Program-made: the position numbers and the translations under genes
Assembly: GCA_013214025.1 (NCBI GenBank)
Contig: JABSRN010000049.1
Span: 62,001 to 126,000, forward strand
From: Polyangiaceae bacterium
Lineage (GTDB): Bacteria > Myxococcota_A > Polyangia > Polyangiales > Polyangiaceae
Length of the DNA stretch: 64,000 nt
Reading direction: 5' to 3'
The notes under the pieces: model-generated
The model's input: the letters and a program-made list of their open reading frames with translations, nothing else
What the model was told of the DNA's origin: nothing
The model's database searches: none
Part shown: positions 41,078-46,717 of the stretch, one piece after another
How the letters are laid out: the number at the start of each line of letters is the position of its first letter
How positions within the stretch are numbered: the first letter of the stretch is position 1

Positions 41078-42106
41078 TTGAGACAACACCGCCAACATCG
41101 GAGCCCAGACCCGCGCGGCCTGACTTCCGCGGCCCCCAGCTGGGTGTTGGCGCTGGCCGGGGTCGGGTGCGTAGCGCTGCAGCCAGCAGAGGCCGTCGCT
41201 GCGCCCAGCGAACTGCCGTCAGAATTGGGCTACAACTACGGCAAGCAGGAATCCCCGCGAGTTCTCGCCATGGGCGGCGCACTGCGCGCGCTCAGCAACT
41301 CCACAGAGGCGCTTTATGAGAACCCCGCCAACATGGCGGCAACCCGGGTTTACCACTTCGCCGGTGTGGTGCAGCTGGTACCCCAAGCGGACCGCCAGAG
41401 CTACGGGGCCACTGCCGTGGACTCGGTGGTGAGCAAGTCCCGATTAGCGGGCGGAGTCACCGGAGTGTGGAGCCAGCAAGACTCAGACGGGCTGGATCGG
41501 AAATTTCGCGATCTGCGTCTGGGATTCGCCTACCCGTTTTCGGATAATTTCATGTTTGGGGCTTCTGGTCGATACTTCACGTTGTCCCAAGAAGGCCCCC
41601 TTCGGCTCAAGGATGGAAGTTCCCACCCACTTCGGGCGGGCACGGGCTTGGTCAACACCGAGATCGTCAAGGACATCACTTTCGACGCGGGCGTCACGCT
41701 CAAACCTATTCCCGAGTTGGCCTTTGCCGTCGTAGGCAACAATCTGACGGATCCCGGACATGGTTTCTTGCCGCTGCAGTTCGGTGCCGGCATCGGTTAC
41801 GGCAACCAAGATTTTTCCTTGGAGGTCGACGCCGTCAACGATTTTACGACCTACGGCGACACCACGAGCGTGTTGATGGGCGGTGGCGAGCTACTGATCG
41901 CGGATCACTACTCGGCACGCGGTGGCTACCGCTATGACGAAGCTCTGGATGTATCGGCCGTCAGCGGTGGCATCGGCTACGTGAATCGCGAATTCTCGGT
42001 CGACCTCTCGGTGCGACGTTCCTTGGGCGAATTGGCGGCGACCTGGATTGCTTTCGGATTCAAGTACCACCTGGAGTCGACCGGGCTCACCGGTGGCGGC
42101 TATTAG
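41078..42106 (+). CDS. outer-membrane beta-barrel protein, PorV/OmpP1-like
   Basis: Up to 342 residues from a TTG (41078); the true start is uncertain. A signal-like segment ends near AEAVAAP. The mature start (PRVLAMGGALRALSNSTEALYENPANMA) carries the motif of PorV/FadL-like barrels, in which a GxGGA.. A..N..P pattern marks a surface-exposed N-terminal region. The remainder alternates polar and aromatic residues, with repeated G-x-G-Y strands, and ends in a Gly-rich Y. The substrate is unknown. It converges with the next gene. Confidence 0.75.
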   Translation: MRQHRQHRSPDPRGLTSAAPSWVLALAGVGCVALQPAEAVAAPSELPSELGYNYGKQESPRVLAMGGALRALSNSTEALYENPANMAATRVYHFAGVVQLVPQADRQSYGATAVDSVVSKSRLAGGVTGVWSQQDSDGLDRKFRDLRLGFAYPFSDNFMFGASGRYFTLSQEGPLRLKDGSSHPLRAGTGLVNTEIVKDITFDAGVTLKPIPELAFAVVGNNLTDPGHGFLPLQFGAGIGYGNQDFSLEVDAVNDFTTYGDTTSVLMGGGELLIADHYSARGGYRYDEALDVSAVSGGIGYVNREFSVDLSVRRSLGELAATWIAFGFKYHLESTGLTGGGY

Positions 42107-42123
42107 TCGTCGCTGTCACGGGG

Positions 42124-43446
42124 CTAGACTGCGGCGTGTTCCACCAGCGTCATCAGTTCACTCAGCCCTAGGCGGAGCGATGCCTGGTCGGCCACAACGT
42201 GGGGCGGGAGTTGGTTTTCACAGCGTAATTGTTCTGCGGCCGTGGGATTGCGAAACCAATCGTTGTTGTGCTCTTCGGTGAGAGTGGCATTTTGAGCGAG
42301 GGCGAGTAGCGCCCCGGCCAGTCGCTGGGGATCTTCCAGTCGCGCTCTGAAGATGACCCCAAACAAATTTGGAAGCAGTGGGTCGCCGAACGCCCGGTTG
42401 GACAATTCAAGGAAACGTTCCGCCGCTTCTTTTTCTCCGGACAAGAGCGCTTGTCGCAGCAGAACGCGCATAGCCAAGGAGCGCACATGCAACAGAACGC
42501 TGCGACTCAGGGCTCTGCGATGATCCTCGAAGCGGCTCCGATCGACGTCTAAGAAACGTTTTGCGAAGCTGGCCTGTAACGGCAATGCGCCGAATAGGAA
42601 GCCGGATTGATGCGCGCGCAGATTGTAAGGGTCACGGGCGACCACGAAGGGCTGATCGGTGGGCCCGGCGGCTCGCTCCCAAGCGTGGCCGACGGCGTAG
42701 AGTGCTCGCAAGAAGCTTGCCGGTGCGTGGGGGGCAGGCAGATTCTCAAGTTCGGGGCTCAAGCTAGCAAACAGATCCGTGTCGGCAAACCATGACGATA
42801 GACTGCGTGACGAGATCAGCGCTGGCCACACCGCGGGAGAATTGTGCCCGAGGCCGTGGCAGACGAAGGCACCGAGGTTGCGAATGCCGATGCCGTCGTA
42901 GATCGCGTCGCTTTGGCTGAGCAATTCTTCCGCAATCGCGCAGAGTTCCGAACTGGGGCTTTCGACTTCGTCGGGTCCGCTAAGCCCCATGCGCTCGGCC
43001 AATTCCTGGCGGCGTTGCCAGAGCACAATGTGGCGGAGGGTCAACGGCGCTCCCCGTTCGGCGAGGGCTTCGGCGTAGTGACCTCGTCTCGCTTCGTCCG
43101 CTACCAAGCCGCTCATGAGCGCGGCGACGCTTAGGGGATCGCCATCCAATTGCGAACTGGGCTCTGCTGTGAACCGCCGCAGCACGGCGAGCTGCCAAAT
43201 ATGGGCGCCGTTGATTCGTTGCTCGGCGAGGCGATACACCCACGCCCGGAGGCGGCCGGCAATGGGCACGTCATCGGAGAGTTCGCACAGTTCGCTGAAC
43301 GTTTGATGTCCGGTGGCCCAGCGCGTCCTTTCGAAGGGATCGCCGGAGTCTGAGGGATCACTGCGCAGCGCGGCTCGCCAGTATTGCCAGGCATCGGCGG
43401 TTTCCCGCAGGGTGCGGTCCAGCTTTAGGGGATCGACGTCGCTCAT
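42124..43446 (-). CDS. hypothetical protein, 440 residues
   Basis: Not recognised. The protein is soluble, without signal peptide or membrane helices, and is Leu/Ala-rich and largely helical (VLLHVRSLAMRVLLRQALLSG, AERFLELSNRAFG). There are His/Glu-containing stretches (CHGLGHNSPAVW, AVGHAWERA) but no clear metal-binding motif. It overlaps no neighbour and diverges from ccmE. Confidence 0.6.
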   Translation of the reverse strand: MSDVDPLKLDRTLRETADAWQYWRAALRSDPSDSGDPFERTRWATGHQTFSELCELSDDVPIAGRLRAWVYRLAEQRINGAHIWQLAVLRRFTAEPSSQLDGDPLSVAALMSGLVADEARRGHYAEALAERGAPLTLRHIVLWQRRQELAERMGLSGPDEVESPSSELCAIAEELLSQSDAIYDGIGIRNLGAFVCHGLGHNSPAVWPALISSRSLSSWFADTDLFASLSPELENLPAPHAPASFLRALYAVGHAWERAAGPTDQPFVVARDPYNLRAHQSGFLFGALPLQASFAKRFLDVDRSRFEDHRRALSRSVLLHVRSLAMRVLLRQALLSGEKEAAERFLELSNRAFGDPLLPNLFGVIFRARLEDPQRLAGALLALAQNATLTEEHNNDWFRNPTAAEQLRCENQLPPHVVADQASLRLGLSELMTLVEHAAV

Positions 43447-43550: not shown

Positions 43551-44150
43551 GTGAGTCGACTCGACGAAGAACTGAATGAGGCCCTGGAAGTATCGGAATC
43601 CGGAACTGATGGCGCCGCCCCTCCAGGCGTGGCGGTTGAGGTTGCCGAGACAGATACCGAGCCGCCGAAACGTAACGTGGCCCTGCTTGGCGGATTGTTG
43701 GTCATGGGCGCAGCTATTCTGGGATTAGTACTCAGTAACGCTGGGGATACTGCGATCTACTCCAAGACCGTCCCGGAATTACTTGAGGAGAGCGCGCGCC
43801 TGTCGGGCAGAACGGTGCGTGTGACCGGCACCTTGGTAAGCGGTTCCTTGGCTAGGCGGCAGGAACCTTGCGAGTACCGTTTCCAACTACAGAAGGACGG
43901 CAAAACTGTGCCCGTGCGCTACGCCCAATGCGTGGTGCCGGATACATTCCGCGACGTACCCGGAATTCCAGTAGAGGTGACGGCCGAAGGCAAATTGGCC
44001 GAGGGGGGACATTTTGAGGCGTCGCACATCATGGCCAAGTGCCCCAGCAAGTACGAGATGAAGGAGCGTGCGGCCAACGGGGAAGAGATCCCCCACGGTG
44101 AAGTGCTGGATCCGGCTAGCGCGCCGAGTGTCGCCACCCCCACGCCCTGA
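43551..44150 (+). CDS. ccmE: CcmE-like heme chaperone, CxxxY type
   Basis: 199 residues from a GTG. CcmE carries heme covalently to the cytochrome c synthetase in system I maturation. One membrane helix (residues 42-62) is followed by a periplasmic OB-fold (GRTVRVTGTLV, VEVTAEGKLAEGGHFEASHIMAK). The usual heme-binding HxxxY is replaced by C164-PSK-Y168. CxxxY CcmE proteins are known from archaea and deltaproteobacteria, where they belong to a variant maturation system. Extra cysteines are C107 and C127. Other ccm genes are not nearby. hemE starts 92 bases later. Confidence 0.85.
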   Translation: MSRLDEELNEALEVSESGTDGAAPPGVAVEVAETDTEPPKRNVALLGGLLVMGAAILGLVLSNAGDTAIYSKTVPELLEESARLSGRTVRVTGTLVSGSLARRQEPCEYRFQLQKDGKTVPVRYAQCVVPDTFRDVPGIPVEVTAEGKLAEGGHFEASHIMAKCPSKYEMKERAANGEEIPHGEVLDPASAPSVATPTP

Positions 44151-44242
44151 ACTTTCAGTGACGGCGTAACCACCGCGATTCCGCCTGGGCATTGGTTGCC
44201 CACGCATTCACTTTCCGCCGTGGTCGGTGTACCCATTCAGAC

Positions 44243-45271
44243 ATGTGGGATAGATTTTTAAGGGCTTGTCGTGGAGAGCCGGTAGACCGGACACCGGTGT
44301 GGTTCATGCGTCAGGCTGGGCGGTACATGCCCGAGTACATGGCGATTCGGAAAAAGTACACGCTACTCGAGATCGTTGACCGACCCGAGGTCGCCTGCGA
44401 GGTGACTCTCCAGCCGGTGATCGCCCACGGCGTCGACGCGGCGATCCTTTTTGCCGACATCCTGTTGCCCCTAGCCCCCATGGGCGCCTCCTTCGAATTT
44501 GCGAAGGGCGAGGGCCCGGTGGTGCATTCACCGATCCGTGTCGCAGCCGACGTCGAGCGCTTGAAAGTCATTGATGCAGCGGAAGAGCTGTCCCACGTGA
44601 TGGAGGCCATCAAGCTGATCCGCCACGAGCTGGATCAGAAGACGCCGCTTATCGGATTCGCCGGCGCGCCCTTCACGTTGGCCAGCTATCTGATCGAGGG
44701 CGGCAAGAGTTCGAATTACGCCCGGACCAAGGGCATGATGTATGGCGACACGGCGACGTGGCACAAGCTCATGGGCAAGCTCAGCGCTGTGGTGCAAAAC
44801 TATCTACTCGCACAAATCGACGCTGGCGCTCAAGTCGTGCAGCTCTTCGATTCTTGGGTGGGCGATCTGTCTCCGAGCGACTACGTCGAATACATCAAGC
44901 CGCATCTTGAGCCGATCTTCGCCGCCCTGGCGAAGACGGATGTACCGGTGATTCATTTCGGTACGGGCACGGCGCTCTTGTTGAAACATCAGCGGGATAT
45001 TGGCGGTGACGTGATTGGCGTTGATTGGCGCACGCCGCTGGATTGGGCCATTGCGCAGTTGGGCCCGGACGTCGTGGTGCAAGGCAATCTCGAGCCCAAT
45101 CTACTGAGTGCCCCCAAGGCGCTTTTGGATGCTCGCATCGAGGACATCCTGGAGAAGGGCCGCGGCGCCAAGTCTCACATCTTCAATCTGGGTCACGGGA
45201 TCCTGCCTCACACCGATCCAAGCAGCGTCAAATACGTTGTCGAGCGTGTGCACGAACTCTCGGCCCGTTGA
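44243..45271 (+). CDS. hemE: uroporphyrinogen decarboxylase
   Basis: 342 residues from ATG 44243. HemE decarboxylates uroporphyrinogen III to coproporphyrinogen III. Diagnostic features are PVWFMRQAGRYMPEY near the N-terminus, ILFADILLPLAPMG, GFAGAPFTLASYLIEGG, QLFDSWVG, and FNLGHGILPHT near the C-terminus. It is followed by hemY after 9 bases, so the two form an operon. Confidence 0.96.
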   Translation: MWDRFLRACRGEPVDRTPVWFMRQAGRYMPEYMAIRKKYTLLEIVDRPEVACEVTLQPVIAHGVDAAILFADILLPLAPMGASFEFAKGEGPVVHSPIRVAADVERLKVIDAAEELSHVMEAIKLIRHELDQKTPLIGFAGAPFTLASYLIEGGKSSNYARTKGMMYGDTATWHKLMGKLSAVVQNYLLAQIDAGAQVVQLFDSWVGDLSPSDYVEYIKPHLEPIFAALAKTDVPVIHFGTGTALLLKHQRDIGGDVIGVDWRTPLDWAIAQLGPDVVVQGNLEPNLLSAPKALLDARIEDILEKGRGAKSHIFNLGHGILPHTDPSSVKYVVERVHELSAR

Positions 45272-45280
45272 GGCAAAGCC

Positions 45281-46717
45281 ATGGCGCATAAAAAAATCGT
45301 TATCGTCGGCGGGGGCATCACCGGCTTAGCGGCGGCGTACCAGCTGCTGAAAAGCGGTACAGATGCAGATGTTACGCTGGTCGAAGCCTCCGATCGCGTA
45401 GGCGGCATCGTTCAGACAGAACACGTAGAGGGCTTCGTTATCGAGCGGGGACCGGATTCATTCCTGAAGACGAAATTACATGCCCGTCAGCTAGCGGTGG
45501 AGTTGGGTTTGGAACCCCAATTCATTTCACCGCGCTCGCATCGGCTCTATTTCGTTCACAAAAGTCGCTTAGAGAGCCTTCCCCCCGGCATGGTTCTCGG
45601 TATTCCCACTCGGGCCAAGGGCGCGTGGAACACTCCATTGCTTTCGAAAAAGGGAGTGCTTCGGGCGCTAGCCGAACCCGTCGTGCCAGTGCGGCGGGGC
45701 AATGGTGATGAGTCTGTTCTTGAGTTTTTGAGCCGGCGTCTGGGACGAGAGGCCGCGACCCGCATTGCCGCTCCCTTGCTCAGCGGGGTATTCGCAGGAG
45801 ACGCAGCGGAGCTCAGTATCCAGTCCACTTTTCCTCAACTAATAGAATTAGAGAAAAACTACGGCAGCCTGCTTGGCGGGCTTTTTGCTCAGCGATCCGG
45901 CATCGTCGGGGAAGCCAATGCCCTCACTCGTGCCGCTCAAATCCTGAGTTGGATGATGCGCGATGAGGATGTCGCGGACAGTCCTTTTGTGTCCCTCGCG
46001 GGAGGCATGGGCGGGCTAGTGGACGCTATCGTCGATGCCCTGCCACCCGAGTGGATACAAACCAACTGTCAGGCCCATAGCGTATTGCCCGCCAAGTCGG
46101 GGGGCTGGACAGTGGCGACCGAAGGCGCTGGCGTTCTGGAAGCGGATGCAGTTCTTCTCACGACTCCCGCACGGGTCAGCCAACGAATCTTGCCTGCCGG
46201 AGCGCTTCGGGAAGAGCTCGGGCAAATCCCGTTTCGGTCGACTGTCATCGTGACTTTCGCTCTTGAATCGGAAGGCTTGGGTCACGATTTGAACGGTGTA
46301 GGATTTGTCGCACCCGATCGAGACCGCCGGTTGATTGCGGGCACTTTCAGCTCGTCCAAATGGTCCGGCCGGGCGCCGCGAGGCAAGGTGCTACTTCGTG
46401 CCTATCTCTGTGAGTACCCCCAGGGTTCTCGCTTGTGCGATGCCTCGGATGCCACCTTGGTCGGATGGGCGCAGGCCGGCTTGCTGAAACTGTTCGGGCG
46501 CGTTGGCCAACCGCTGTTCACACGAGTCGTGCGCTATCGCCAAGCGAGTCCCCAGCCAGTGGTCGGCCATCAACAGCGGATGGCCGGTATCGACCGGGAG
46601 CTCGAAAATTTCCCTGGTGTGTACCTCGCGGGTGCCGGCCTCCGCGGCGTTGGGCTCCCGGACTGCATTCGACAGGGCCGCGAAGCCGGTCGCCGGATCC
46701 TCGCAGATCTAGGCTGA
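45281..46717 (+). CDS. hemY: protoporphyrinogen oxidase (HemY type)
   Basis: 478 residues. This FAD enzyme oxidises protoporphyrinogen (or coproporphyrinogen) IX to the porphyrin, a late step of heme synthesis. The FAD motif IVGGGITGLAAAYQL is at the N-terminus. RGPDSFLKTK, PLLSGVFAGDAAELS and the C-terminal GAGLRGVGLPDCIRQGREA are typical of HemY. Whether it acts on the proto- or coproporphyrin form cannot be read here. It forms an operon with hemE. Confidence 0.93.
   Translation: MAHKKIVIVGGGITGLAAAYQLLKSGTDADVTLVEASDRVGGIVQTEHVEGFVIERGPDSFLKTKLHARQLAVELGLEPQFISPRSHRLYFVHKSRLESLPPGMVLGIPTRAKGAWNTPLLSKKGVLRALAEPVVPVRRGNGDESVLEFLSRRLGREAATRIAAPLLSGVFAGDAAELSIQSTFPQLIELEKNYGSLLGGLFAQRSGIVGEANALTRAAQILSWMMRDEDVADSPFVSLAGGMGGLVDAIVDALPPEWIQTNCQAHSVLPAKSGGWTVATEGAGVLEADAVLLTTPARVSQRILPAGALREELGQIPFRSTVIVTFALESEGLGHDLNGVGFVAPDRDRRLIAGTFSSSKWSGRAPRGKVLLRAYLCEYPQGSRLCDASDATLVGWAQAGLLKLFGRVGQPLFTRVVRYRQASPQPVVGHQQRMAGIDRELENFPGVYLAGAGLRGVGLPDCIRQGREAGRRILADLG

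Follow-up and report, generated by a model that had tools for sequence, protein, structure and literature searches.

The question raised by this locus is whether a CcmE protein with a cysteine in place of the heme-binding histidine acts as the heme chaperone of a variant cytochrome c maturation system and, if so, which CcmH it is paired with. The ccmE gene, of the System I* type, lies at 43551..44150 on the + strand of the window (i.e., the whole 64,000-nucleotide stretch of DNA analysed), where its open reading frame is present, starts with GTG, and encodes 199 aa. The only Pfam match of the product is to PF03100 (CcmE; residues 70-170, E 1.4e-20), and its 73.9 bits are above the curated cut-off of 24.6 bits. 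The NCBIfam CcmE equivalog models match it below their cut-offs (best 57.4 bits vs 126), and these models probably describe other subfamilies.

The sequence reads as a protein with a single predicted membrane helix at about residues 43-64 (43677..43742, +), followed by a periplasmic OB-fold domain that corresponds to the Pfam stretch (residues 70-170; 43758..44060, +). In the AF2 model (mean pLDDT 78.5), the OB domain is confident (pLDDT about 94-98 at residues 71-130 and 141-160), and a helix at 50-63 has low confidence. The PDB fold matches of this model are led by CcmE structures (8ce8_E, 1sr3, 1lm0, 1j6q, and 2kct). The last of these, the Cys-type CcmE of D. vulgaris, matches at 40% identity and is also the nearest solved relative by sequence (phmmer).

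Within this domain, the presumed heme-binding residue is Cys164 (codon TGC, 44040..44042, +), and Tyr168 (codon TAC, 44052..44054, +) is presumably the axial heme ligand. The phmmer alignments place the stretch "imaKCPSKY" against the His-type motif of 8ce8_E and against "LMTKCP" of D. vulgaris 2kct. Across a 31-row CcmE alignment, Y168 is invariant and the C164 position is Cys in at least 90% of the rows (two of the 31 are of the His type). A sequence-only reading of this DNA had proposed that a cysteine replaces the heme-binding histidine, and we confirm this: the motif of the PF03100 protein, C164-P-S-K-Y168, is found at the position of His130, as the heme residue of E. coli CcmE is named in PMC3884852. 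C-x-x-x-Y/F is present in 88 of the 116 phylum-draw genomes with a fetched CcmE, and we therefore reject a sequencing error or a chance substitution at C164. The same reading had likened the protein to CxxxY-type CcmE of archaea and deltaproteobacteria, and its motif matches that of the variant named System I*, for which PMC3601427 gives deltaproteobacteria as the largest group and CPSKY as the main motif (25/36, with F for Y in four). Cys-CcmE itself is already published, and the window CcmE is a typical System I* protein.

Two additional cysteines, Cys107 (43869..43871, +) and Cys127 (43929..43931, +), had been called unusual, which is correct for the CcmE family at large and incorrect for the protein's own and closest families (f1-f3), where they are the rule. 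Both are present in 21 of 109 CcmE and neither in the other 88/109, with no protein having a single one. All 21 come from families f1-f3, throughout which the pair is present. The two residues, which we treat as partners from their co-occurrence in this comparison, flank a β hairpin predicted in the AF2 model (strands at 108-115 and 118-124), each just beyond one end of it. Since C107 and C127 are present jointly or absent jointly, the comparison suggests that they form a structural disulfide.

The genomic setting of ccmE, which had been described as apart from the other ccm genes and beside hemE-hemY, was also borne out. Downstream on the + strand are hemE, encoding uroporphyrinogen decarboxylase (44243..45271; TIGR01464, 429.7 bits), and a gene for a hemY/hemG-type protoporphyrinogen oxidase (45281..46717; TIGR00562, 261.2 bits). 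The hemE reading frame was listed from a TTG at 44192, and the ATG at 44243 is the more likely start. Upstream of ccmE lie a divergent 440-aa protein without a family and a PorV-like protein; these two (window 41078-43446) adjoin ccmE in many relatives too. ccmE adjoins hemE in 5 of 13 other genomes of its own family and, among 58 named loci that were examined, in 21; some loci in this comparison are cut by contig ends, and the two sets share some genomes. The link of ccmE to heme synthesis is real but confined to part of its own family.

The other ccm genes are found on four separate contigs (ccmF on C2, ccmC on C46, a ccmH-like gene on C15, and ccmB on C80); the search for ccmF, ccmC, and ccmB proposed from the sequence recovered all three. 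The CcmF matches PF01578 and PF16327, and the CcmC-like protein matches TIGR01191 below its cut-off. In the whole genome, there are only three Cytochrom_C_asm proteins: CcmF, CcmC, and a putative HemX-like protein beside an apparent hemA, the latter two names being our reading of the sequences. The PF13442 cytochrome c domain has seven matches, four of them over the cut-off, and c-type cytochrome substrates therefore exist in this genome. The names of the nearest loci indicate a Polyangiaceae-like myxobacterium as the host. A profile search of its genome (5.77 Mb, 184 contigs, 97% complete) found no second CcmE, HxxxY or other. The idea that a second, canonical CcmE does the work is thus rejected, and an overlooked copy is unlikely, though possible, given this completeness and number of contigs.

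The variant was named in a 2006 paper, which reportedly made the original claim that CcmH is absent from the Cys-CcmE system, and the sequence-only reading had proposed a missing ccmH as a check that would fit the variant. This check failed, since a single CcmH-family (PF03918) protein is encoded on contig C15 (L005 1327-1902, +; 45.2-45.5 bits vs a cut-off of 25), and its active site is altered. The LRCxxC redox motif that we sought in it is absent; the active site is LAPCCWNQTLDIHGSPAA, i.e., LAPCCWNQ, which aligns ungapped with LRCPKCQNQDIADSNAPIA, i.e., LRCPKCQNQ, of the P. aeruginosa CcmH 2hl7. Relative to LRCxxC, Ala stands in for the first Cys, whereas the second is retained and is directly preceded by an additional Cys. 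The AF2 model of this protein matches the folds of 2hl7 (E 0.007) and 2kw0 (E 0.07), each with a probability of at least 0.99, and no further PDB fold match exceeds a probability of 0.11. Consequently, both a total absence of CcmH and a System I with an unchanged CcmH are rejected. As for the group as a whole, PMC3601427 (2011) states that about a third of System I* members have a CcmH and that CcmH absence is not characteristic.

Within its own family (14 genomes), nine have only a CcmH of the APCC type, three only a fused CxCGxC domain, one both, and one none. In own-family relatives with the fusion, a CcmH domain with CMCGxCxRxLLxTCxC follows CcmF. More widely, CxCGxC and TCEGCAG CcmH domains are fused to the CcmF C-terminus in one open reading frame of about 830-1160 aa, at loci that include L116, L117, L118, L147, L148, L149, L181, and L297-L306. 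The CcmF of this genome (L006 7972-10155) keeps the linker and ends where its relatives have the fused CcmH domain. It has likely lost that domain, leaving the APCC gene as the sole CcmH. A frameshift hiding the domain was rejected, as the 900 bases that follow ccmF encode no such domain in any of the three forward frames. An open reading frame after ccmF (L006 10046-11029) has a membrane segment and ends in a CxxC region that resembles a zinc ribbon.

To relate the CcmE residue to the CcmH motif, we used genomes from several draws, with canonical CcmH defined by us as [LMIV][RA]C..C[QA]. The phylum draw comprised 140 genomes searched for both families, with CcmE in 131 and CcmH in 109. CcmE was fetched for 116 of the 131, the ones left out being G023, G033, G055, G059, G062, G065, G072, G074, G078, G084, G092, G095, G098, G110, and G118. 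The second draw comprised 80 genomes around an Acidobacteria locus, with CcmE in 53, all of which were read, and CcmH in 36; three weak CcmH rows, that of G215 and the second ones of G165 and G163, were left out. A named set of 16 genomes was picked by an AKCPSKYE CcmE and is thus unable to show His types; all 16 have a CcmH match, and G147 among them enters the counts with the second draw. For the third draw, 81 genomes were taken around an Armatimonadetes locus, of which 55 have CcmE and 3 have CcmH; the 30 of its 56 CcmE matches that were read are all of the Cys type, its three CcmH are all non-canonical, and its genomes are outside the pairing counts except for G141.

Among the fetched genomes of the phylum draw, the second draw, and the named set, all 33 with a His-CcmE have a canonical CcmH (28 + 5), and the 150 with a Cys-CcmE divide into 36 with no CcmH, 113 in which every CcmH is non-canonical, and 1 with both kinds. 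CcmE type therefore matches CcmH type in every compared genome except this one, G124, which is the sole Cys-CcmE genome with a canonical CcmH. Fisher's p for the association is 4e-32, a figure that overstates the case because the genomes are related. The two types are found unmixed, in data of a kind that cannot show mixing to be impossible. ccmE and ccmH are at most 10 kb apart in 32 of 33 His genomes and in 20 of 98 Cys genomes; the simplest reading is that the genes of the His-CcmE lineage stand in an operon-like cluster.

Several genomes needed separate treatment. G124 (L010, L399) has a CPSKF CcmE, a canonical LRCVVCQNQS CcmH, and an SPxCPG CcmH; we guess that the canonical copy could be part of an Nrf-type set. 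G224 (L342, L378), with CPSKY and HDEQY CcmE in one genome and no CcmH match, was kept outside the 33 and the 150; it could contain two systems or contamination. G079 and G186, which have CcmH and no CcmE match, were also excluded from the pairing counts. G099 was counted by its first, normal CPSKY CcmE, as its divergent second CcmE (CPETY; L123, contig C85) was missed by the motif rule and dropped. CPSKF, without the Tyr presumed to be the axial heme ligand, occurs in 19 genomes of families f13, f17, f19, f21, f25, f28, and f37, and those with a CcmH have the SPxCPG type in 18/18.

To what extent do these pairings reflect repeated change? A CcmE tree of 162 rows, computed from the columns that precede the motif, has its 26 His rows as one side of a branch (support 95). 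A CcmH tree of 134 rows, computed with the motif columns removed, likewise has its 24 canonical rows as one side of a branch (support 99). Both are "quick" trees on about 100 columns. The CcmE tree contains one His/Cys change in all, which leaves a single pair for the independent-pairs test, and repeated CcmE/CcmH co-evolution is rejected as an explanation that this one pair has no power to support. Since each type occupies one side of a single branch, and the pairing rests on one change in the CcmE tree, the trees point to one old split and offer no repeated test. The simplest reading is therefore that two old lineages were inherited as modules, rather than that the two proteins co-evolved repeatedly.

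The CcmH classes differ in which cysteine they have. At the second LRCxxC position, Cys is found in 24/24 canonical, 33/33 SPxCPG, 14/14 APCC, 3/3 TCEGCAG, and 55/56 CxCGxC rows, with four further rows falling outside every motif class. The first position holds Ser in SPxCPG, Ala or Ser in APCC, and Thr in TCEGCAG. In CxCGxC, a class with additional cysteines, it is C in 55/56; having Cys at both aligned positions, this class differs in its motif while retaining the pair. For classical CcmH, PMC3884852 suggests that the second cysteine, which is exposed, makes the attack. Judged by the alignment, three of the four variants would retain this attacking thiol, whereas the resolving thiol would be lost or shifted.

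Altogether, the window CcmE is very probably the heme chaperone of a System I* cytochrome c maturation pathway that includes an altered CcmH relative. Anchored by its one membrane helix, the protein would take up heme from CcmC on C164, close to Y168, and deliver it to the synthetase CcmF, which would attach it to apocytochromes c. The redox helper would be the CcmH relative with LAPCCWNQ rather than a classical CcmH. We infer its joint action with CcmE, and support for a shared pathway is limited by the location of the ccmH-like gene on a different contig from ccmE.

The strongest challenge concerns this partner. The APCC-type CcmH could be a separate paralogue with another job, in which case the system would run without CcmH, as in archaea and Desulfovibrio. 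This is consistent with the lack of CcmH in the 36 Cys-CcmE genomes mentioned above, which include G036 of the same family, and in 78 of 81 third-draw genomes, with the coexistence of an APCC protein and a CxCGxC CcmH in G032, G066, and G085 of the phylum draw and in three named genomes, and with the truncated end of CcmF in this genome. However, APCC is the sole CcmH in 9 of the 14 own-family genomes, the only good PDB matches of its model are CcmH structures, and the invariant second Cys is retained. We consider a separate role somewhat improbable.

A second alternative concerns the chemistry at C164, which could be a reversible axial thiolate ligand, so that heme is shuttled without a covalent intermediate. 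In its favor, CcmE of D. vulgaris, the closest solved relative, is reported to bind ferric heme non-covalently via its cysteine (PMC3884852), and a covalent heme therefore cannot be assumed here. However, the M. acetivorans CcmE stains for heme and loses the stain in C120A, this cysteine being described as needed for both heme attachment and holocytochrome formation (PMC9084895). In addition, PMC3601427 reports that a Desulfovibrio Ccm operon expressed in E. coli made holocytochromes and that its Cys-CcmE bound heme covalently. We regard the non-covalent shuttle as unlikely and favor a covalent heme on C164 that would be handed over to CcmF. A relic CcmE in a genome that relies on System II (ResBC) for cytochrome c maturation, as the scattered ccm genes might suggest, is highly improbable, given that CcmB, CcmC, and CcmF are all retained, that the only three Cytochrom_C_asm proteins are assigned elsewhere, and that CcmE is kept in 131 of 140 phylum genomes.

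The window CcmE is unremarkable within its group; its coupling with CcmH is moderately interesting and is the part worth following. In the open-access literature, we found no statement that the CcmH of Cys-CcmE genomes lacks LRCxxC, and subscription papers may contain one; the pairing seems less known than Cys-CcmE. We tentatively propose, as a view that may well prove wrong, that bacterial System I consists of two old unmixed modules: His-CcmE with an LRCxxC CcmH, and Cys-CcmE with a second-cysteine-only CcmH (SPxCPG, APCC, or TCEGCAG), a Cys-rich CcmH (CxCGxC, often behind CcmF), or none. The match between the CcmE heme residue and the CcmH redox site would come from interference, at a shared synthetase, between a classical CxxC reductase and a free thiol that carries heme. 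If true, this would bring the 2006 claim of "no CcmH" into line with the statement of 2011 that "a third have CcmH" (PMC3601427). If Cys-CcmE has its own CcmH type, the partner to test is named. At issue is whether heme release, and not only apocytochrome reduction, involves the CcmH redox site.

These results place the system among known ones as follows. The CcmE resembles those of Desulfovibrio System I* (D. desulfuricans and D. vulgaris 2KCT) in its OB fold and in the Cys replacing the heme His; unlike them, it has C107 and C127, specific to its own and nearest families, and its genome also encodes a CcmH-family protein. It shares the CxxxY motif with the M. acetivorans CcmE, in which the Cys is reported as needed for heme attachment (PMC9084895), whereas that archaeal system is without CcmH and this genome has one with LAPCC. 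As in the canonical System I of E. coli, homologues of CcmB, CcmC, CcmE, and CcmF are present, but E. coli has HDENY in CcmE, LRCxxC in CcmH, and one operon, compared with CPSKY, LAPCC, and scattered genes here. Finally, the CcmH-family protein shares PF03918, the predicted fold, and the second LRCxxC Cys with CcmH of P. aeruginosa (2HL7) and E. coli (2KW0), and it differs from both in having Ala for the first Cys and an extra Cys before the second.
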